Assembly: GCA_938050045.1 (NCBI GenBank)
Contig: CALLJS010000001.1
Coordinates: 1 to 64,000 of the forward strand
Direction: 5' to 3'
Source: an uncultured Sphingomonadaceae bacterium
GTDB taxonomy: Bacteria; Pseudomonadota; Alphaproteobacteria; Sphingomonadales; Sphingomonadaceae
DNA length: 64,000 nt
Shown: positions 1-27,848 of the stretch, piece by piece
Position numbering within the stretch: position 1 is the first letter of the stretch
Layout: the number at the start of each line of letters is the position of its first letter
Notes under the pieces: generated by a model
What the model saw: the letters and a program-made list of their open reading frames with translations, nothing else
Databases searched by the model: none
What the model was told of the DNA's origin: nothing
Translations under genes and position numbers: made by a program

Positions 1-1743
1 CAACGTCGAGAACGGCCAGAGCGCGGAGGAAAACCACGTGTCGAGAACATCTTCGTCGCGCCAAATATGGATGGTGCTCTTTTGGATAGAAGATTGAGCA
101 AGCCTCTTCGCAGCATTCGCAGAATGCGCAATTTCAACCCCCGTCACCCACGGCACATGCTCGTCGTAGTGCGCCCTCGCGAGTATGAGTGCCTCACTTT
201 CCGACTCTGCCACAAAGGTTCTTATCTTCGTTGACAGTAAATTTTCGAAAGACGGATAGGGAGCTTCTCCCTGAAAAGCACCTCCTTCAATGTCTGGCCC
301 ATACCACGCCGGGATCTGGTGTCCCCACCAGAGTTGACGTGAAATGCACCAGGGCTGGATGTTACGCATCCATTCGAAGTACGTCTTTTCCCAGTTCTTG
401 GGATGGAACGTGGTTATGCCATCTTCGATGGCCGCAAGTGCGGGCTTGGCCAGCTCTTCCGCGTTCGCAAACCATTGGTCCGTCAACATGGGCTCGATGA
501 CGACACGGGAGCGGTCGCCGAACGGTTGCATAACCTTCTTGTCCTCGATCCCGATCATCAGGCCTTCGGCATCGATGTCCGCGACGACCTTCCTGCGTGC
601 GGCGAAGCGTTCCAGACCGCGGTACTCGTCCGGCACCAGATTGATGGTATCAACGTACGCCTTGTCAGGCTCGCCGCCTGCGTCGAGGAGTGCTTTCGCC
701 AACTCGGCGGCCTCCGCATAGGGAACACCATCGGCGCGCATGTCGGCGACTTCATCCATCAGGCGGTACATCGGTATGTTGTTGCGGCGGGCAACCTCGT
801 AGTCGTTGAAATCGTGCGCGCCCGTGATCTTCACAGCGCCGGATCCGAAGTCCGGATCCGGATAGTCATCCGTGATGATCGGGATCAGCCTGCGGTGCTC
901 TTTCGGCCCAACCGGAATCTCGCACAACTGCCCGATGATCGGCGCATATCGCTCATCCGACGGATGCACGGCGACAGCACCGTCGCCCAACATCGTTTCC
1001 GGACGCGTGGTTGCAATGGAGATATAATCGCGGGTCTCGCGCAGCGTTTCGCGTCCGTCCTCGTCCTTCTCAACGTATTCGTAGGTTGCACCACCGGCGA
1101 GCGGGTACTTGAAGTGCCACATGTGGCCGTCGACTTCGATGTTCTCGACCTCGAGATCGGAAAGCGCAGTCCGGAATTCGGGGTCCCAGTTGACGAGCCG
1201 CTTGTCCTTGTAGATCAGGCCTTCGTTGTAGAGCTGAACGAAAGTCTTCATCACGGCTGCGACCATCTGATCGTTCTCAGTGCCCTCGCTGCCCATCGTA
1301 AAACGATCTCGCGACCAGTCGCACGATGCCCCGAGCCGCTTGAGCTGGTTCAAAATTGTCCCGCCAGACGTTTCTTTCCACTCCCAGATCCGTTTGATGA
1401 ACGCATCGCGGCCCATCGCGTGGCGATCCGGCTCCTGACTCTCGGCAAGCTGTCGCTCGACCACCATCTGCGTGGCGATGCCCGCGTGGTCGGTGCCCGG
1501 TTGCCACAACACGTCCTTGCCACGCATGCGCTCGAAACGCGCGAGAATATCCTGCATCGTGTTGTTGAGCGCGTGGCCCATGTGCAGGGAACCGGTGACA
1601 TTCGGTGGCGGAATGACGATGGAATAGGGTTCTGCACCCGCAGCGACGCGCTCTGGTCGGCCACAGGCAAAACAGCCCTCGGATTCCCAACGGGCATAAA
1701 TCCGCCCTTCGATTTCGGACGGCTGATAGGTTTTTTCAAGCAT
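1..1743 (-). CDS. valS: Valyl-tRNA synthetase (N-terminal part; continues past window start)
   Basis: Class I aminoacyl-tRNA synthetase that charges tRNA-Val in the cytoplasm. The reading frame is open from the ATG to the window edge, about 581 codons of a family normally near 900 residues. The HIGH signature is present as [18 protein letters not shown] near residue 45. At the window edge the frame reads [17 protein letters not shown], a hallmark of the ValS catalytic domain. The KMSKS loop and anticodon-binding domain lie outside the window. It is followed upstream on the same strand by popZ. This gene lies in the GC-rich left segment, which may not belong to the same genome as the rest. Confidence 0.97.
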
Positions 1744-1913
1744 GGGTGTGCTGTTTCGTCATTGGGATTGAGGGCGCGATTGCGTAACGCTGGAGCGGAA
1801 CGCCTGTCAACGGCGCACATTCGCGTCGATCGGGGCTATAGGGACCCCGTCGCCGGTTGCGGACCTTGCAACGCGTTGTTTCAGACATGAATAGACCTGA
1901 GCGCGCTGCGGTT

Positions 1914-2999
1914 TCAGTTGCTTCCAGCTTCGTTCGAGACGTCCTCACGCAAGGCCTGTTCAATCAAGCGTGGCATGTTCTCGTCCAGCCACTCTTTCAG
2001 CATCGGACGGAGCATGCGCGTTACCGTCTGCTCGATAACGCTGGAGGAGAGCCCTGCTGACACCTGCGCGGGCGCTGTCGATTGCTGCGCAGGTTGCGCG
2101 TGGGAAACAGCTTCTTTCGCAGGTTCATGCACATGGTGCCCGTTGATCCCGTCATTTTCCTGAGAGGCGCCGTTCAGTTCGACCGCAATCGTTCCTTCTG
2201 CCAGATCGCCTCCTGCATGGGGCTCCTCCGCGAGTGGACCGAGATCAAACGGTTGTTGCTCTTCGGTTTCGGGGTGTGCACATGGCAGTGCTGCACCGTT
2301 CATCTGGGTGGGACCGTTCAAACCTACGGTTCCGTTTACATCCGCCTGTGCGGTTGGCACTGGCTCCTGTGCAACGGATGCCTTTGGCTGCTCTGGCGCA
2401 GAATTTACCGGATCGAGAGCCGTCGCTGCATTGAAACCGTTGTGACCATTATGTTGTTCGTCAGACCGGAACTGCGCTGCAGCCTGGTCGTCAGTCTCCA
2501 TCTCGGTCGGCAGTACGATGCGGTTGTCCAGCGCAGGAGCAGCCTTTTGAAGGTCAGCGACCGGTTCGGAAAACGCAGTTGCAGCTTCGGCATTGGGCGC
2601 AGAATTCCGGTCAAATGGTGCAAGCGATTCCCTTGGTCGTGACACCTCGGCTTGCGAAATGCGTGGTTCGGCGGCAACGTAGTCGCGAGCAGGTGTGCCG
2701 GCCGCAGCACGGGCTGCTGCAATCAACGCCGCGGTGCTTTCAAGATTGTCTATATGAGCTGCAGGTGCGGGATCCGCGCGCCGATCGGCTGGTACTGCCT
2801 GGACTTGCGGAACAGTGTCGCGAGCCGGAGCCGCTGTCGCGTGTTGAAATTCGGATGTCTGCGGGTGCTGTGTCAACGCCGCATCCATTTTCTGGCGCAA
2901 TTGATCTGCGCCATTCAGGTCATCGGACACCAACCGACGAATGGAAGACAATATGTCATCAAGACTTGTATCAGCAGACTGTTCACCTGGTCCCGCCAT
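1914..2999 (-). CDS. popZ: PopZ-like polar organizing protein (DUF2497)
   Basis: Scaffold that self-assembles at the cell pole and tethers the chromosome origin region in alphaproteobacteria. The N-terminus carries the short helix LDDILSSIRRLVSDD. A long acidic, Pro/Ala-rich disordered middle follows, of low complexity with many Asn-Gly pairs. The C-terminus is the conserved trimerisation segment with MLRPMLKEWLDENMPRLIEQ. I chose the start that gives MAGPGEQS; an in-frame ATG five codons earlier (3014) is possible. At about 361 residues it is longer than the Caulobacter protein, by expansion of the disordered linker. Its place next to valS is usual in this class. Confidence 0.88.
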   Translation of the reverse strand: MAGPGEQSADTSLDDILSSIRRLVSDDLNGADQLRQKMDAALTQHPQTSEFQHATAAPARDTVPQVQAVPADRRADPAPAAHIDNLESTAALIAAARAAAGTPARDYVAAEPRISQAEVSRPRESLAPFDRNSAPNAEAATAFSEPVADLQKAAPALDNRIVLPTEMETDDQAAAQFRSDEQHNGHNGFNAATALDPVNSAPEQPKASVAQEPVPTAQADVNGTVGLNGPTQMNGAALPCAHPETEEQQPFDLGPLAEEPHAGGDLAEGTIAVELNGASQENDGINGHHVHEPAKEAVSHAQPAQQSTAPAQVSAGLSSSVIEQTVTRMLRPMLKEWLDENMPRLIEQALREDVSNEAGSN

Positions 3000-3277
3000 C
3001 GAACTCACTCTCAACCCGATTTCACCTGGACCAGATAAGCTCGCGCGGCATGTCTTGCATGTGACACGCTCGCCGCAAGGTATCGACCCTCAGCATCTAT
3101 GGCGTCTCCGCTCCAACGAAAACGCCCCCAGTCGAATGCAAACGCGCAGCGCACTCGATATCCCAAGACTCAATGACCGCATAATTGTCGCGAAATCAAG
3201 TCACCAGGCGGGCATTCTTTTACACCCGGATCACTTTACCCTTATAGTCTGAGTGTCCGGGAACTGCATCCGTGATT

Positions 3278-4759
3278 TTACTGGGACACGCGACCAAACA
3301 GGACATATCCTTCGTACGATTCATTTGGTGTCACTGTCGCACCCCAGAACTTATCACTGACGCGCCCGTAATGAACTTCGGGGTCATGGAGCTCTACTCC
3401 GAGTTTTGTATCGGATGCCGTCAGACGTCCCATCGCTGAGAGCACTGTGTATGCAGCAACGACAATGTCGCGGCGGGTCGTGAACAGAGCGCTTTGAGCT
3501 TCGAGCAGTTCCTGCTTGGCATCCAGGACATCGAGCAATGTCCGTTGACCAACTTTTTCCTCGGCACGCACGCCTGCAAGCGCTGTTCGGCTCGCGCGGA
3601 CTTCCTGCTGGTTTGAACGTAATTGTGCGCGTGAGGCAGTCAGCTCCGACCATGCGCGAACGGCGCGTGCTTTGGCGAAGGTCCTGGCAACTTCGATTTG
3701 CCGGGCCGCGCTTTCCCGCGTGCGTTTGGCAGCCCGGATGCGGGAGTACACCTCCCCGCCCTGATAGAGCGGAATGTTGACGCGCCCGGTGATCGAGGCA
3801 TCATCATTCTGTTTCACGCTGGACGATACATCATAGCGGCTGTCGAAACTCCCTTGCAGACTGACCGTCGGTAGCAACTCACCGCGAATGACGTCGACCT
3901 GATGGCGTGCCGCCAGCTCCTGGAAAGCGGCTTGTACGACCTCGGGTGCCTCACCCACTGCAACTTCTACAACGCCATTTATGGACTTGGGCAGAAGACG
4001 TTGCGGCGCCTGCGTTGCCCGCAAACGACCTGGCTGATGGCCGATCACACGCACATATTCGGAAATGCTTCCACGCAGGTTCGACTTGGCACGATCCAGA
4101 GCGGCCAACGAACGGGCGCGGCGCGCTCGCGCTTGTGCCACGTCCGTTCGTGTTGCATCCCCTGCCTGGAATCGTATCGTTGTCCCCCGCACGTCTTCGG
4201 CAAGCACACGCACATCGTTCTCCCGCAGTCGCACAATGTCACGATCACGGATCACATCCATATAGGCGGTAACCGCTTCAAGAAGCACACGTTGCTCCGT
4301 GGCACGTAATGTTTCGCGTGCAGCAAGAACATTCGCTTCGGCCTGACGGATCTGATTGGCCGTGCGAAAACCGCGGAACAGGTTTTGCGTGAACTCGATC
4401 TGGTAACCGCCTGGATTGCCCGACCGGTTCAAGGACGGGGTTGTGCCGGCATTAAGGCGTGTACGCGTACGTGTGCGCTCAAGGCTCGTGTCGCCACTCA
4501 CTGTAACGCGCGGGCGATATCCGGATTTAGCCTGCGGCACCTGTTCGTCCGTAGCCTCCAGGCGTTTACGTTCCGCGAGAATGGTCGGATTGGTCTGGTA
4601 GGCGGATGCGAGTGCTTGATGCAGCGTCTCCGCAGACGCGCGACTTGTCGTCACCACGACAAGTGTCGTGGCTGCGAACAGCATGATATTTCGAGAGCGG
4701 ATGCCCATCCACTCGCCGACACGCATTACGCGACGCATCACATTTACCCCAAACCGCAT
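3278..4759 (-). CDS. tolC: TolC-family outer-membrane channel protein
   Basis: Outer-membrane exit duct for type I secretion or RND efflux. An N-terminal hydrophobic segment (IMLFAATTLVVVTTSRASA, residues about 25-43) is a signal peptide ending in an AxA-type site. The mature part has the two TolC repeats, each with long coiled helices; examples are NLFRGFRTANQIRQAEANV and LYQGGEVYSRIRAAKRTRE. The length of 493 residues fits the family. The true start is uncertain: ATGs at codons 8, 12 and 18 would all leave a good signal peptide. It lies between popZ and the pcm-family gene, and no inner-membrane export partner is visible here. Confidence 0.9.
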   Translation of the reverse strand: MRFGVNVMRRVMRVGEWMGIRSRNIMLFAATTLVVVTTSRASAETLHQALASAYQTNPTILAERKRLEATDEQVPQAKSGYRPRVTVSGDTSLERTRTRTRLNAGTTPSLNRSGNPGGYQIEFTQNLFRGFRTANQIRQAEANVLAARETLRATEQRVLLEAVTAYMDVIRDRDIVRLRENDVRVLAEDVRGTTIRFQAGDATRTDVAQARARRARSLAALDRAKSNLRGSISEYVRVIGHQPGRLRATQAPQRLLPKSINGVVEVAVGEAPEVVQAAFQELAARHQVDVIRGELLPTVSLQGSFDSRYDVSSSVKQNDDASITGRVNIPLYQGGEVYSRIRAAKRTRESAARQIEVARTFAKARAVRAWSELTASRAQLRSNQQEVRASRTALAGVRAEEKVGQRTLLDVLDAKQELLEAQSALFTTRRDIVVAAYTVLSAMGRLTASDTKLGVELHDPEVHYGRVSDKFWGATVTPNESYEGYVLFGRVSQ

Positions 4760-4972
4760 ACCCGGAGCGCAAGCTGCAGGTCACGAGCCGCACTGCCAAG
4801 GCCCTCCCATTGCTGTTGATGAGCTGTGGGAAACTCAAGGATAACGACAGGGTTAACGGCGTCCAAGCTCGAAATTGTCACCGTGGCTTCTCGGGTACAG
4901 GCGGCGGAGATTGTTCTGCAAAATTACATGCAAAACAGCCTTGTATACGGAGTTTTCGAGGCCGCTGATTGA

Positions 4973-5644
4973 TCAGAACTGAAAGGCTCTGACTTGTTGA
5001 AAACCTGGCAATTCGGGTGCGCTGGCGTCGAACGCGACTGTTCTGCTCCACCCCTCCCCATGACGCACATAGCGTGTCGCTTTTCCCATAGGTTGGTTCC
5101 CGACAATCGCAACCAGGCGTCCACCATCATTCAGTTGTGCGCGCCAGGCGTCGTCGACATCCGACACCCGCCCTTCAAGGATGATGACATCATACGGACC
5201 TTGATCTGGCCGACCTTCGGAGAGGGTGCCAGACACAATCGCCGCATTGTCCGCGCCCTGCTCGCTCAACGTGGTGCTGGCGCGCTCTGTCAGGGCATCG
5301 TCGCCCTCCAGTCCCACGACGCTTTCTGCCAGCCGTGCGAGGACCGCCGTCGAGTAGCCGGTGGCGCAACCGACGTCCAGTACGAGGTCAGTTGGCTCGA
5401 TGTCAGCCAGTTGAACCAATTGCGCGAACACCATCGGGGACAGCAAAGCCCGCTCTGGCAAGGGTCCAAGTTCGCTGCGAACCACCAGATCATGATCCAT
5501 ATAGGCTAACGGACGCACTGAGGCGGGGGCAAAGTCCTCACGTGGTATATCCATCATGGCCTTTGTAATGCGTCGATCCGTGACATCGTTGGTGCGGATC
5601 TGGGATTCGACCATATTGAGCCGTTGTGTCTTGAAGTCGTTCAT
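4973..5644 (-). CDS. pcm: Protein-L-isoaspartate O-methyltransferase family protein
   Basis: SAM-dependent methyltransferase of the PCMT fold, which in E. coli repairs isoaspartyl residues. The N-terminus MNDFKTQRLNMVESQIRTND and the motif I glycine loop VLDVGCATGYSTAVLARL (about residues 86-103) are clear. The catalytic-loop region around ALLSPMVFAQLVQL fits the short alphaproteobacterial form of about 220 residues, which often sits beside tolC. I took the internal ATG at codon 65 of the longer open frame because the family starts there and the upstream part lacks similarity. Whether it truly repairs isoaspartate is not shown by the sequence. Confidence 0.85.
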   Translation of the reverse strand: MNDFKTQRLNMVESQIRTNDVTDRRITKAMMDIPREDFAPASVRPLAYMDHDLVVRSELGPLPERALLSPMVFAQLVQLADIEPTDLVLDVGCATGYSTAVLARLAESVVGLEGDDALTERASTTLSEQGADNAAIVSGTLSEGRPDQGPYDVIILEGRVSDVDDAWRAQLNDGGRLVAIVGNQPMGKATRYVRHGEGWSRTVAFDASAPELPGFQQVRAFQF

Positions 5645-5886
5645 GCCTGCTGATCCATCCGAGGTCTTAAAACTGGGTGCGTCATTGCCCACATTTCGCA
5701 TTGTCGCCAGCGGAACCGGCACTGTCCGGATCGAAAACCTGTCACAAGCGCAAATCGCCCGTTGCCCGATGGCACGCGCATTGCTAGACACCCGCTGACT
5801 GGTTCGCGAATTCGATGTGCGATCTGCACGACGCAACCGGCCTATGCCTTACACCACAATGATCAGGATTCTCCAGATCAACTTGA

Positions 5887-5960
5887 GGCCACGTGGCGGA
5901 GTGGTGACGCAGCGGATTGCAAATCCGTGTACGCCGGTTCGATTCCGGCTCGGGCCTCCA
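5887..5960 (+). tRNA. tRNA-Cys (GCA), acceptor stem mismatched, probably chimeric
   Basis: The cloverleaf has anticodon loop TTGCAAA (GCA, Cys), T-arm GCCGG-TTCGATT-CCGGC, discriminator T and an encoded CCA. The 5' acceptor strand is GGCCACG and the 3' strand is TCGGGCC. Only the outer four pairs form; pair 5 is A-G, pair 6 is C-C and pair 7 is G-T. Each half would pair fully with a different partner (CGTGGCC or GGCCCGA). Base composition changes at the same place, so the gene is likely a join of two different tRNA-Cys genes through their identical core. Confidence 0.93.
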
Positions 5961-6217
5961 TTTTCTCTGCTGTAATTTTGGCAGTTTTTAACTGTTTGAG
6001 AATGTTACACTGTTTGCACGCTTCAACTTGTTTGAGAATCTCGATTTACTGTGCAAAACTATATATGCGTTATGCTCTCACCATTGGCTAATTTCAGATT
6101 CGAAGCAGCCGCATATTTCGGCCTTATCAGTATAATATGGAATTATTTTACACCTCTAGTAATTGTTTCAAGTCTCTGATAGATTATAGAAATATAAGGG
6201 TTTTTCAGGGGGGAATT

Positions 6218-7087
6218 ATGAATATAAAAGCATTACTGGTAATAATAATAGCGGTTTTCGTTTCTTTGGGCATTGCTTATGCTGCGGGTCAGAATGCGCT
6301 CGCTACCGAGAACGGCACTGCATTATTCACTATCGCAGCTCTGATTGCTTTTGCTGTGAATTGGTTAGCTTTCATTCCAGCTAATATTTTGAAAACTGAA
6401 AAATTCTATGATCTGACGGGGGCGATTAGCTATTTGTCGGTCATTATAATCATATCATCATTAGCAGGGCCGCTTGATTGGCGGGCGATGATAGTCGGTG
6501 CTTTCGTAATCATTTGGGCGCTGCGTTTGGGGTCATTTTTATTCATGCGCATACAGGCTGATGGCAAAGATATTCGTTTTGATGAAATTAAGATCAATCC
6601 GATGCGCTTCTTAGTCGCTTGGACATTGCAGGGTGCTTGGGTGTTTTTAACCAGCGCGAGTGCTTTGGCGATCATCACCAGCACCACCCGTTTGCCGCTT
6701 GGCATATTCGCTTATATAGGCATGATTATCTGGGTGATTGGCTTTGCAATAGAGGTTGCGGCAGACGGTCAGAAAAAACAATTTCGCCGCAATCCAGATA
6801 ATAAGGGCAAATTCATCAATGTGGGTTTATGGTCATGGTCGCGCCACCCCAATTATTTTGGAGAAATCACGCTATGGACGGGCATTACAATCATGTCGCT
6901 TCCGCTCTTATCGGGCTGGCAGTGGGTAACGCTGATTTCGCCGATATTTGTGATAATATTACTGACCAAAATCAGCGGTATTCCAACGTTGCAGCGCACC
7001 GCGAAAAAACGGTGGGGCGATGATAAAGACTATCAAGACTATGTTAAAAACACATCTTTGCTTATCCCACTACCGCCCAAAAAATAG
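6218..7087 (+). CDS. DUF1295 family membrane protein (steroid 5-alpha-reductase-like)
   Basis: Integral membrane protein of about 289 residues with six or seven hydrophobic helices. The C-terminal signature GLWSWSRHPNYFGEITLW is characteristic of DUF1295 and of the related steroid 5-alpha-reductase/isoprenylcysteine methyltransferase fold. The substrate is unknown. I chose the ATG preceded by the purine-rich stretch TCAGGGGGGAATT rather than one 27 codons earlier. It is the first gene on the AT-rich side of the tRNA and converges on the grxD operon across a bidirectional terminator. Confidence 0.85.
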   Translation: MNIKALLVIIIAVFVSLGIAYAAGQNALATENGTALFTIAALIAFAVNWLAFIPANILKTEKFYDLTGAISYLSVIIIISSLAGPLDWRAMIVGAFVIIWALRLGSFLFMRIQADGKDIRFDEIKINPMRFLVAWTLQGAWVFLTSASALAIITSTTRLPLGIFAYIGMIIWVIGFAIEVAADGQKKQFRRNPDNKGKFINVGLWSWSRHPNYFGEITLWTGITIMSLPLLSGWQWVTLISPIFVIILLTKISGIPTLQRTAKKRWGDDKDYQDYVKNTSLLIPLPPKK

Positions 7088-25048: not shown

Positions 25049-25389
25049 TGTCACCCCAAATCGGCTTTGACGAAATCGGCGCATCGCTCACCGATCATGA
25101 TGCCCTTTTCATCTGAGCAAAACTGCCTTTGCGGTTTTGCGTTAAAAGATGAAATCACAAGGATTCCGAGCATCTTGAATGGCCAGTTTACTGTCACCCC
25201 AAATCGGCTTTGACGAAATCGGCGCATCGCTCACCGATCATGATGCCCTTTTCATCTGAGCAAAACTGCCTTTGTGGTTTTGCGTTAAAAGATGAAATCA
25301 CAAGGATTCCGAGCATCTTGAATGGCCAGTTTACTGTCACCCCAAATCGGCTTTGACGAAATCGGCGCATCGCTCACCGATCATGATGC
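25049..25389. repeat. 143-bp tandem repeat, 2.4 copies, duplicating the GMC gene 3' end
   Basis: Copies begin at 25051, 25194 and 25337. Each full copy holds the last 17 codons and stop of the GMC oxidoreductase gene (ATGATCGGTGAGCGATGCGC on the minus strand), then a 90-bp spacer. The third, partial copy is the real gene end. The spacer contains a strong nested hairpin: TTTCATCT/AGATGAAA outside and GCAAAACTGC/GCGGTTTTGC inside with a four-base loop (25107-25154). I see one base difference between the copies (GCGG versus GTGG), so the duplication is recent. Confidence 0.95.
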
Positions 25390-26932
25390 TCGGCGCATTG
25401 GTATTGCCGCTCACTATCTTGGGCATGATGCTAGCATCGGCAATGTAAAGACCGTCTAATCCCTTAAACTTTAGGCGCGGATCAACAACGGCATCATCAT
25501 CCGATCCCATGCGGCATGTGCCAACGGGGTGATAGACGGTGTCGGCTTTATCGCGGATTAATTGGTCGAGCGCATCATCATCGTGCAGCGGCGTATCATA
25601 GCGATCTTTTAGGCCAAAATCGGCTAAGGGGCTGGTTTCGGCAAAGCGGTGGATTTGCCGAACGCCTGCGCGCATAGTCACCATATCGCGCTCATCATCG
25701 AGGAAATTTGGGTCAATACGCGGCGGCGCGGCGGCATCATTTTCATAGAGGGCTACGCTGCCCATGCTATAGGGGCGCAACACGCAACTATGGATGCTCA
25801 GACCATGGCCTTTGGGCCGTTCTTTGCCATGATTTTCGAGCGGCCCAGGGACAAAGTGAAATTGCGTATCGGGGGCAGGTAAATCGGGCGTTGATGACCA
25901 AAAACCGCCCGCTTCGGCATAGGGAGTGGTCATGATTCCTGTACGCTGGAGGCGATGCTCGATAATAGATTTGAGCATTTTGAAATTCGCGCCGATGCTA
26001 TCGCCAATCAGATCGCGCGATGGCGATACCCAGCCGCCAACATAATCAATATGGTCTTGCAGATTTTGTCCAACTTCTGATTTCTCACACAGTATTTCAA
26101 TGCCATGCGGTTTAATATCGTTGGTGCGACCAATGCCCGATAATTGTAATATTTGCGGCGATCCAAATGCCCCTGCCGATAATATGACAGCCCCGCGTGC
26201 TGTGATAATTTCGGATGATTTGCCTTTGCGTATTTGCACGCCCGTAACGCGGCCTTCGTCAATGATTAATTTTTCAACCAAGACTTTGGTGCGCACATCG
26301 ATATTATCTTGGTGTTTTACAGGGTCGATATAGGCGCGCGCTGCTGACCAACGTTCCCCAGCTTTTTGGGTGACTTGGAACATGCCAATGCCTTCTTGTT
26401 CGCCGCCATTAAAATCATCGGTGATTTTGAGTTGAAGATTGCGGGCCGCTTCGATAAAGGCCGTGCTTGATGGGTTGGCATATTTTTGATCCATCACATT
26501 CAGCGGGCCGTCTGTACCATGGTGATCGCCGCTTATACGCTCATTGCCCTCTGATCGGATGAAATAGGGCAATACATCAGCATAAGACCAGCCCGCACAG
26601 CCCATATCGGCCCAATTGTCATAATCCCATTTATTGCCGCGAATATAGACCATAGCATTAATGGCGCTTGATCCGCCCATGCCGCGCCCGCGCGGTTGAT
26701 AGCCTGTGCGGCCATTCAGCCCTTTCATTGGGACAGTATCAAATTTATAATTGCCGCTGTCAGGAATGAAAGGAAATAAGCCAGGCGTGGTATAGACAAA
26801 ACCATTATTTTTGCCGCCCGCTTCGAGCAGACAAATGGTCTTGCTGCCATCTTTGGCGAGGCGACCAGCAGCAGCGCTGCCGCCCGATCCGCCGCCGATT
26901 ACGATGATGTCATAGACGCTATGATGGGCCAT
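25337..26932 (-). CDS. GMC-family FAD oxidoreductase (choline dehydrogenase-like)
   Basis: Flavoprotein alcohol dehydrogenase of about 531 residues. The dinucleotide fold is IIVIGGGSGGSAAAGRLAKD. GMC signature 1 is RGRGMGGSSAINAMVYIRG and the C-terminal catalytic motifs are DTVYHPVGTCRMG and GNTNAPSIMIGERCAD. The start MAHHSVYD overlaps the end of the sterol desaturase-like gene by 14 nt. Family members oxidise choline, long-chain or terpenoid alcohols; the substrate is unclear. Its last 17 codons are repeated in tandem downstream. Confidence 0.93.
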   Translation of the reverse strand: MAHHSVYDIIVIGGGSGGSAAAGRLAKDGSKTICLLEAGGKNNGFVYTTPGLFPFIPDSGNYKFDTVPMKGLNGRTGYQPRGRGMGGSSAINAMVYIRGNKWDYDNWADMGCAGWSYADVLPYFIRSEGNERISGDHHGTDGPLNVMDQKYANPSSTAFIEAARNLQLKITDDFNGGEQEGIGMFQVTQKAGERWSAARAYIDPVKHQDNIDVRTKVLVEKLIIDEGRVTGVQIRKGKSSEIITARGAVILSAGAFGSPQILQLSGIGRTNDIKPHGIEILCEKSEVGQNLQDHIDYVGGWVSPSRDLIGDSIGANFKMLKSIIEHRLQRTGIMTTPYAEAGGFWSSTPDLPAPDTQFHFVPGPLENHGKERPKGHGLSIHSCVLRPYSMGSVALYENDAAAPPRIDPNFLDDERDMVTMRAGVRQIHRFAETSPLADFGLKDRYDTPLHDDDALDQLIRDKADTVYHPVGTCRMGSDDDAVVDPRLKFKGLDGLYIADASIMPKIVSGNTNAPSIMIGERCADFVKADLG

Positions 26933-27848
26933 GGATATGTTCCTTTTGTTGTTCATGCCAGCGTTTTTTAAGGCTGCTGCTGGTATCGCGCGAACCATCG
27001 TGCGACCAACCTGGTTCGCGAATGCAATAATTTATTTTATCGCGCCAGCTAGGGGCGTTCCAAATGTCGCGGGCGATGCCGATCCATTCATGAAAAGCAA
27101 CCCAGATTAGATTATGCGTTTCGAGATTTTTGACGATACCATATTGGATTATTTCCTCTTTAGTTTCAGGCTCAAAAGTGCCAAACATCTTATCCCAAAT
27201 GATAAATACACCCGCATAATTGCGGTCCAAATAGCGCGCATTGGTGGCATGGTGTACGCGGTGATGGCTAGGCGTGTTCATAACCGCTTCAAACCAGCGC
27301 GGCATTTTATCTATGGCCTCGGTATGAATCCAATATTGATAGATAAGATTTATTCCACCAAGGAAAAAGACAAGGGCTGGTGGAAATCCGATTAATAATA
27401 ATGGCATCCGAAACATAAAACTAAGCGCAAAAAAGCCTGTCCATGTTTGGCGCAATGCGGTGCTTAAATTATAATGCTGGCTGGTGTGATGATTAACATG
27501 CGCTGCCCAAAACCACCGCACACGGTGGGCGCTGCGGTGGAAACAATAATAGGCTAAATCATCCAATATAAAGATGATCGGAATCAACCAAAACCCATTA
27601 CCCAATGTCAATTTTATATCCCAGATACGATATTCATAGACAAACCCTGCCAATGCAAAAATTGTTGATCCGAATATGATTCCCGCGATAACGCTGCCCG
27701 TTCCCATCGCCATGGATGTCACGGCATCTTTGGTTTCATAATTTATCCGTGCATTACGGCGCGAGCATAACCATTCGGCCATGATGGTGAGGGCGAAAAA
27801 TGGGATCGCCCACGTCGTTGGGGATGGTAAATTGTCCATCATTACCAA
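26919..27848 (-). CDS. Sterol desaturase/fatty acid hydroxylase family protein
   Basis: Membrane di-iron oxygenase of 309 residues. The histidine motifs are DDLAYYCFHRSAHRVRWFW, HVNHHTSQHYN and MNTPSHHRVHHATN. Four or more hydrophobic helices surround them. The substrate is probably a lipid or sterol-like compound. It overlaps the GMC oxidoreductase gene, so the two may act in sequence as hydroxylase then alcohol dehydrogenase; that is inference. An ATG three codons in (MDNLPSP) is an equally good start. Confidence 0.9.
   Translation of the reverse strand: MVMMDNLPSPTTWAIPFFALTIMAEWLCSRRNARINYETKDAVTSMAMGTGSVIAGIIFGSTIFALAGFVYEYRIWDIKLTLGNGFWLIPIIFILDDLAYYCFHRSAHRVRWFWAAHVNHHTSQHYNLSTALRQTWTGFFALSFMFRMPLLLIGFPPALVFFLGGINLIYQYWIHTEAIDKMPRWFEAVMNTPSHHRVHHATNARYLDRNYAGVFIIWDKMFGTFEPETKEEIIQYGIVKNLETHNLIWVAFHEWIGIARDIWNAPSWRDKINYCIREPGWSHDGSRDTSSSLKKRWHEQQKEHIHGPS

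Follow-up and report, generated by a model that had tools for sequence, protein, structure and literature searches.

The first contig of this draft genome (C1, 77,720 bases), of which the initial 64,000 nucleotides were analysed (the window hereafter), is almost certainly a chimera of two co-sampled bacteria, which a metagenome assembler would have made at the core of a tRNA-Cys gene, as judged from sequence comparisons. The same error appears to recur elsewhere in the draft, where several further tRNA genes close to contig ends are affected, and would there likewise represent an artefact, not biology. An earlier note on the window had called the join between the left 5.9 kb and the rest false; this claim is supported by the hybrid nature of the tRNA, by a duplicate of the left-hand gene cluster, by the gene order in relatives and by recurrence of the pattern at four other tRNAs.

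The gene in question, a tRNA-Cys(GCA), was predicted by ARAGORN on the plus strand at 5887–5960 and is matched by the Rfam model RF00005 at 5887–5957 (51.4 bits), with two non-standard acceptor pairs flagged. Its acceptor strands, GGCCACG (5887–5893) and TCGGGCC (5950–5956), are mismatched at pairs 5 and 6 and form a G-U pair at position 7. The mismatches and the wobble in an otherwise good tRNA-Cys, pointed out in the earlier note, are thus confirmed. As a control, an acceptor mismatch was found in none of the 37 tRNA-Cys genes present in the best 80 named valS loci. Comparison of the strands with relatives assigns them to different sources. The 5' strand is foreign: GGCCACG occurs in 16 of these 37 genes, and the window's genus has GGCCCGA, paired with TCGGGCC. 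The 3' strand is native, being the same in four relatives (G035, G011, G008 and G165) and in a second tRNA-Cys gene of the assembly, located on contig C26. Positions 8–74 of the window's gene are identical to the tRNA-Cys of G035 and G011, which belong to the same genus, and only nucleotides 5–7 (5891–5893) differ. Positions 1–46, in turn, are identical to the tRNA-Cys of L097, a distant named relative of the left side, which differs at positions 47 and 63–66. Because of these matches of strands and core, the gene can be read as a 5' part from one organism (X) and a 3' part from another (Y), joined within 5894–5949, i.e. in sequence conserved between both parents. The shared core, previously put at about 55 nt, is at most 56 nt long, with 39 nt (positions 8–46, in L097) directly seen. 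In 21 of the best 80 named valS loci, a tRNA-Cys gene lies within 1 kb of pcm and divergent from it, eight of the 21 having the strand pair GGCCACG/CGTGGCC.

The foreign block (1–5886, GC 0.58) starts at base 1 of C1 and hence constitutes a contig end; the window contains no N. The earlier reading of its genes as a GC-rich valS-popZ-tolC-pcm series was borne out by family searches, all four lying on the minus strand: the first 581 codons of valS, cut by the contig start (1–1743; NCBIfam NF004349, valine--tRNA ligase, 718.6 bits, above cut-off), a popZ-like gene of the DUF2497 family (1914–3014; PF10691, 48.9 bits, above cut-off, with NCBIfam PopZ_fam below cut-off), a gene for a TolC-family outer membrane protein (3278–4759; TIGR01844, 320.8 bits, above cut-off) and a pcm-like gene with a PCMT domain (4973–5836; PF01135, 105.4 bits, with the NCBIfam pcm models below cut-off). 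The frame of the last is open from 5836, and its likely start, chosen by eye from the translation, is an ATG near 5644. The shift in composition at the tRNA-Cys, also proposed before, is sharp: GC is 0.568–0.588 in each of the first six kilobases and 0.429 in the seventh, and the correlation of tetranucleotide Z-scores with the right flank (r) is 0.04 for 1–5886 versus 0.65–0.78 for nine equally long blocks on the right-hand side.

No close relative of the left block was found among the best 80 named loci, where the most similar valS (71%) is that of L048, a Hyphomicrobiales draft. When its DNA was compared with a sample of 385 genomes of the class (the own genome included, its own matches set aside), the best-scoring match was 73% over 0.9 kb of valS, and a near relative of its valS was likewise absent from a sample of 396 genomes of the order, drawn from a larger group and including the own genome. 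Among these 396, 18 genomes from seven genera of the window's own family have a valS 65–72% identical to that of X, from which we infer that valS has moved between groups. The 3' end of the tRNA-Cys of X and its true right flank would be as indicated by distant relatives.

The right flank gives a different picture. The sequence at 5894–5988 is 93.7% identical to G011 over 95 nt, a match that runs across the tRNA end into the flank, and within the native stretch just 3' of the tRNA-Cys (5961–6092, plus strand) a further match to G011 (77.6%) covers 6044–6092. Because of this match and the identity of tRNA positions 8–74, the DNA from about the tRNA core rightwards can be regarded as native. Its first gene, encoding a DUF1295 protein (6137–7087, plus strand; PF06966, 204.4 bits), lies downstream of, and on the same side of, the tRNA-Cys in two relatives, with an identity of about 87–88% in G035 and 69% in G011, and seven neighbouring right-flank proteins that match the same stretch of G035 are 79–96% identical. 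Searching the two flanks separately, as had been suggested, thus yielded same-genus relatives for the right one and none near for the left one. The native order in both G035 and G011 is valS-popZ-tolC-pcm, a tRNA-Cys with the acceptor GGCCCGA/TCGGGCC, and the DUF1295 gene, the distance between the last two being 2.9 kb in G011, 13.6 kb in G035 and about 180 bases in the window. The window's gene order with a mismatched tRNA-Cys was not found in the relatives compared at the locus (G035, G011, G008 and G165), all of which have a well-paired tRNA-Cys beside a cluster of the native type; the stretches from two others, G006 and G012, contained no tRNA and did not enter this comparison. Further along the right flank, a tandem repeat with a 143-nt unit (25049–25389; two complete copies followed by a third one that is only 55 nt long) reaches the 3' end of a minus-strand ORF at 25337–26998.

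The genome has its own version of the left-hand cluster. An AT-rich pcm-tolC-popZ-valS cluster on contig C26 (C26:1320–9884, including the tRNA) adjoins a tRNA-Cys with a perfect stem (C26:1320–1393), in the same gene order as the left block except for one additional gene between popZ and valS. The proteins of the two clusters are only distantly similar (ValS 51%, TolC 38%, Pcm 36% identical). Since the C26 cluster has an r of 0.78 and its proteins are 62–92% identical to those of the G035 and G011 clusters, it is the native one, and since it adjoins a well-paired tRNA-Cys, the left block is an alien duplicate of this neighbourhood. The true neighbour of the native half of the window is thus found elsewhere in the assembly, as well as in the order seen in G035 and G011, and the same holds for a tRNA-Val discussed below. 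The C26 locus is itself peculiar: its tRNA-Cys differs from that of the genus at core positions 30, 38 and 44, and beyond it lie 1.3 kb of atypical DNA (C26:1–1319, r 0.15). These features do not follow from a single join and count against assembly chimerism as an explanation; this contig end is either another chimera or a real island. An ORF at C26:131–1057, beside the well-paired tRNA-Cys, encodes a kinase-like protein resembling HprK-related ATPases (NCBIfam matches below cut-offs). Relatives of this protein, 48–59% identical, occur in other genera of the family; at the 11 best loci, no tRNA was found within 1.5 kb on either side.

The pattern extends to other parts of the draft, which comprises 2.42 Mb in 28 contigs and for which a completeness of 99.28% and a contamination of 1.37% are listed. 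We surveyed 3–12 kb at the left end of every contig but C1 (27 contigs), the right ends of 27 contigs (all except C23, 2,999 bases, which is masked as N) and the regions around the Rfam tRNA matches; of these 39 matches, 38 were included and the one at C16:27748 was dropped for want of an ARAGORN call. A tRNA-Val in the overlap of C11 and C13 was counted twice, and the C-A first pair of the initiator tRNA-Met, which is normal, was excluded from the count of mismatches. Acceptor stems are mismatched in five of the 38 rows (37 distinct genes), namely those of Cys, Arg, Trp and, twice, Val. All five lie no more than 13 kb from a contig end, and in every case the alien DNA is on the end side.

The left end of C4 (C4L) carries clpP-clpX-lon at a GC of 0.556 and turns native inside a tRNA-Val(TAC) with a mismatch at pair 6. 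Another lon gene, 63% identical to that of C4, is located at C10:53591 in an AT-rich locus (GC 0.426) with its frame open; the notion that it might be a broken copy was rejected, as the TAA within the match falls at the end of an 820-codon open frame. At the right end of C20 (C20R), positions 1–42 of a tRNA-Val are native and are followed by an incompatible 3' part with 13 differences from the gene of G035. In both G035 and G011, the genes of C20R, a well-paired tRNA-Val and the genes of C4L follow each other in one stretch, and because of this contiguity we interpret the two ends as one native locus cut at tRNA-Val, with a stranger added to each half. The tRNA-Val 3' part together with about 830 bp at a GC of 0.385 (C20:62507–63363) derives from some other organism. 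On C5, native genes lead to a tRNA-Trp with pair 7 mismatched, beyond which the composition is alien (C5:127424–139969; GC 0.565 in its initial 6.5 kb and 0.571 in its final 6 kb) and the genes, going by their translations, are presumably nusG-rplK-rplA-rplJ-rplL-rpoB-rpoC. The bin has no other rpoC, so the argument from duplication is missing for the C5 end, which counts against our interpretation. Finally, C3 starts with an AtuA-family gene at a GC of 0.51, up to a tRNA-Arg(CCT) with pair 7 mismatched.

An alien flank on one side accompanies all five mismatched tRNAs, as opposed to nine of 30 others (Fisher's test, P = 0.006, for the 35 rows left after dropping three with one flank too short, and with a threshold picked after the data had been seen; correlations are noisy for the flanks below 2 kb, i.e. 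C3L, C20R, C13R and C26L). Because these nine well-paired tRNAs (at C26, C13R, C20L and six further sites) have an odd flank too, such a flank is in itself no proof of a join, and the six further ones may border natural islands. One contig start does resemble a natural element: C12:1–17643 has relaxase-like (DUF3363), HipA-like and TraG/VirD4-like genes in its first 6 kb, these 6 kb and the 4 kb preceding a tRNA-Leu(GAG) are alien in composition, and the region looks like an integrative conjugative element. In general, contig ends have more tRNA matches in their vicinity than expected: of the 39, eight are at most 2 kb away (expectation 1.8, P = 3e-4) and 15 at most 6 kb away (expectation 5.0, P = 5e-5), although these counts include tRNAs of rRNA operons and the one gene counted twice in an overlap, i.e. 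ordinary reasons for such a position.

The route by which the join arose can be sketched as follows. Two co-sampled bacteria would have had nearly the same tRNA-Cys core, which in a de Bruijn graph would collapse into a single node that can be entered and left in two ways each; the assembler would have entered it from X (valS-popZ-tolC-pcm and the 5' part of the tRNA-Cys) and left it into Y (the 3' part, the DUF1295 gene and everything further right in the window). At tRNA-Val(TAC), tRNA-Trp and tRNA-Arg(CCT), the same event may have happened. This presumes that the sample was a metagenome and that the join goes back to an assembler, as opposed to a chimeric molecule in the library. Among 55 contig ends, 20 overlap another end by exactly 141 identical nucleotides, in 13 pairs altogether, and these overlaps suggest a de Bruijn assembly with k = 141. 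The default series of MEGAHIT ends at this value, and the program was probably MEGAHIT or a similar k = 141 assembler. As the core of 39–56 nt is shorter than 141, the join plausibly dates from an earlier round with a smaller k; contigs of small-k rounds feed later ones. None of the hybrid tRNA ends is among the 141-nt overlaps, which counts against this explanation.

Foreign DNA fused at contig ends has been seen before. A study on a mock community reports chimeric Salmonella/Escherichia coli contigs, the chimeric sequences always being at contig ends (PMC8172020). The draft resembles these interspecies chimeras in that alien DNA sits at a contig end and is joined via a conserved stretch; however, the joins in that mock community rested on highly similar genomes, whereas here distant organisms would have been joined inside tRNA genes, the hybrid tRNA being the record of the join. 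In the titles and abstract openings of the literature listed for chimeric contigs and tRNA, tRNA genes are not described as chimera breakpoints. As in ordinary bin contamination, the foreign core genes give duplicates in the bin (the listed 1.37%), but here it is native contigs that carry the fused foreign DNA, and discarding whole contigs is therefore no remedy.

A junction inside a tRNA gene that coincides with a step in composition also recalls islands integrated by tyrosine integrases, and in the window's genus this site is indeed in use: in G035, a region of about 12 kb with a Phage_integrase ORF (L128:8209 to L129:5560) lies between the tRNA-Cys and an att-like 24-nt repeat, a 92% copy of the 3' end of the tRNA-Cys. 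A genuine island would here have the C26 tRNA as attL and the window's tRNA as attR, the left 5.9 kb being its far end, taken from another bacterium's chromosome. The orientation would fit, since tRNA-Cys would form a direct repeat with C26 leading out of it and C1 leading into it, and C26:1–1319 is compositionally atypical; the C26 tRNA-Cys does face that of the window, but with a different core. We nevertheless consider an island very unlikely and reject it on three grounds. First, the block consists of a core neighbourhood in normal chromosomal order up to the tRNA, with no island genes. Second, a simple exchange would have left on C26 the 3' strand of the other parent (CGTGGCC in its relatives), whereas C26 has TCGGGCC. 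Third, it leaves the recurrence at other tRNAs unexplained, i.e. clpP-clpX-lon at tRNA-Val, rpoBC at tRNA-Trp and the incompatible tRNA-Val 3' part of C20R. In addition, the foreign part is the 5' part of the tRNA and not its 3' end, and a well-paired acceptor has not been reconstituted in the window, contrary to what is expected of an island integrated at a tRNA. The earlier note had stated that both an integrase and an att duplication are lacking. The former holds for the proteins scanned, four in the left block and 14 in the right flank as far as 20.2 kb, with smaller ORFs outside the scan, and the latter for 20 of the 24 direct-repeat families listed for the window, which include no tRNA repeat.

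Chimeric molecules formed during library preparation, when DNA of two species is linked at the tRNA by template switching or ligation, would presumably also have their joins in conserved sequence. Such molecules, however, should be individually rare and hence not dominate a consensus, and five mismatched tRNA junctions in one bin would be unusual, for which reasons we find this origin hardly credible. Assigning the chimeric joins to the cell, with one lineage carrying other bacteria's valS-popZ-tolC-pcm, clpP-clpX-lon and nusG-rpoBC recombined at tRNAs and hence duplicated core operons and hybrid tRNAs, is just as hard to believe. Least probable of all is real interspecies homologous recombination at the tRNA gene, yielding a cell that has an additional valS cluster and whose tRNA-Cys is weakened: the sequence does not forbid it and a second, well-paired tRNA-Cys would cover the function, but several independent events would be needed, each at a tRNA, importing core operons and near a contig end, and it was seen in none of the four relatives read at the locus.

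With misassembly at tRNA cores thus the preferred explanation, distrust should not stop at the tRNA-Cys junction but also cover the remaining contig ends of the draft that adjoin a tRNA. Although the bin is rated as nearly complete and little contaminated, at five contig ends it seems to be joined to DNA of other organisms at a mismatched tRNA, and the joined pieces include marker genes, the bin's only rpoC being on an alien-looking end. The cores of tRNA genes are likely systematic breakpoints for short-read assemblers, and mismatches in the acceptor stem likely a marker of such breaks that needs no reads: as the two strands of the stem come from opposite sides of the join, a mismatch between them can expose it. 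The same test could be applied to other draft genomes. As regards the organism itself, statements on gene order, horizontal transfer or rpoB and rpoC that are based on this bin could be wrong, and phylogenies inferred from its marker genes could be misled.
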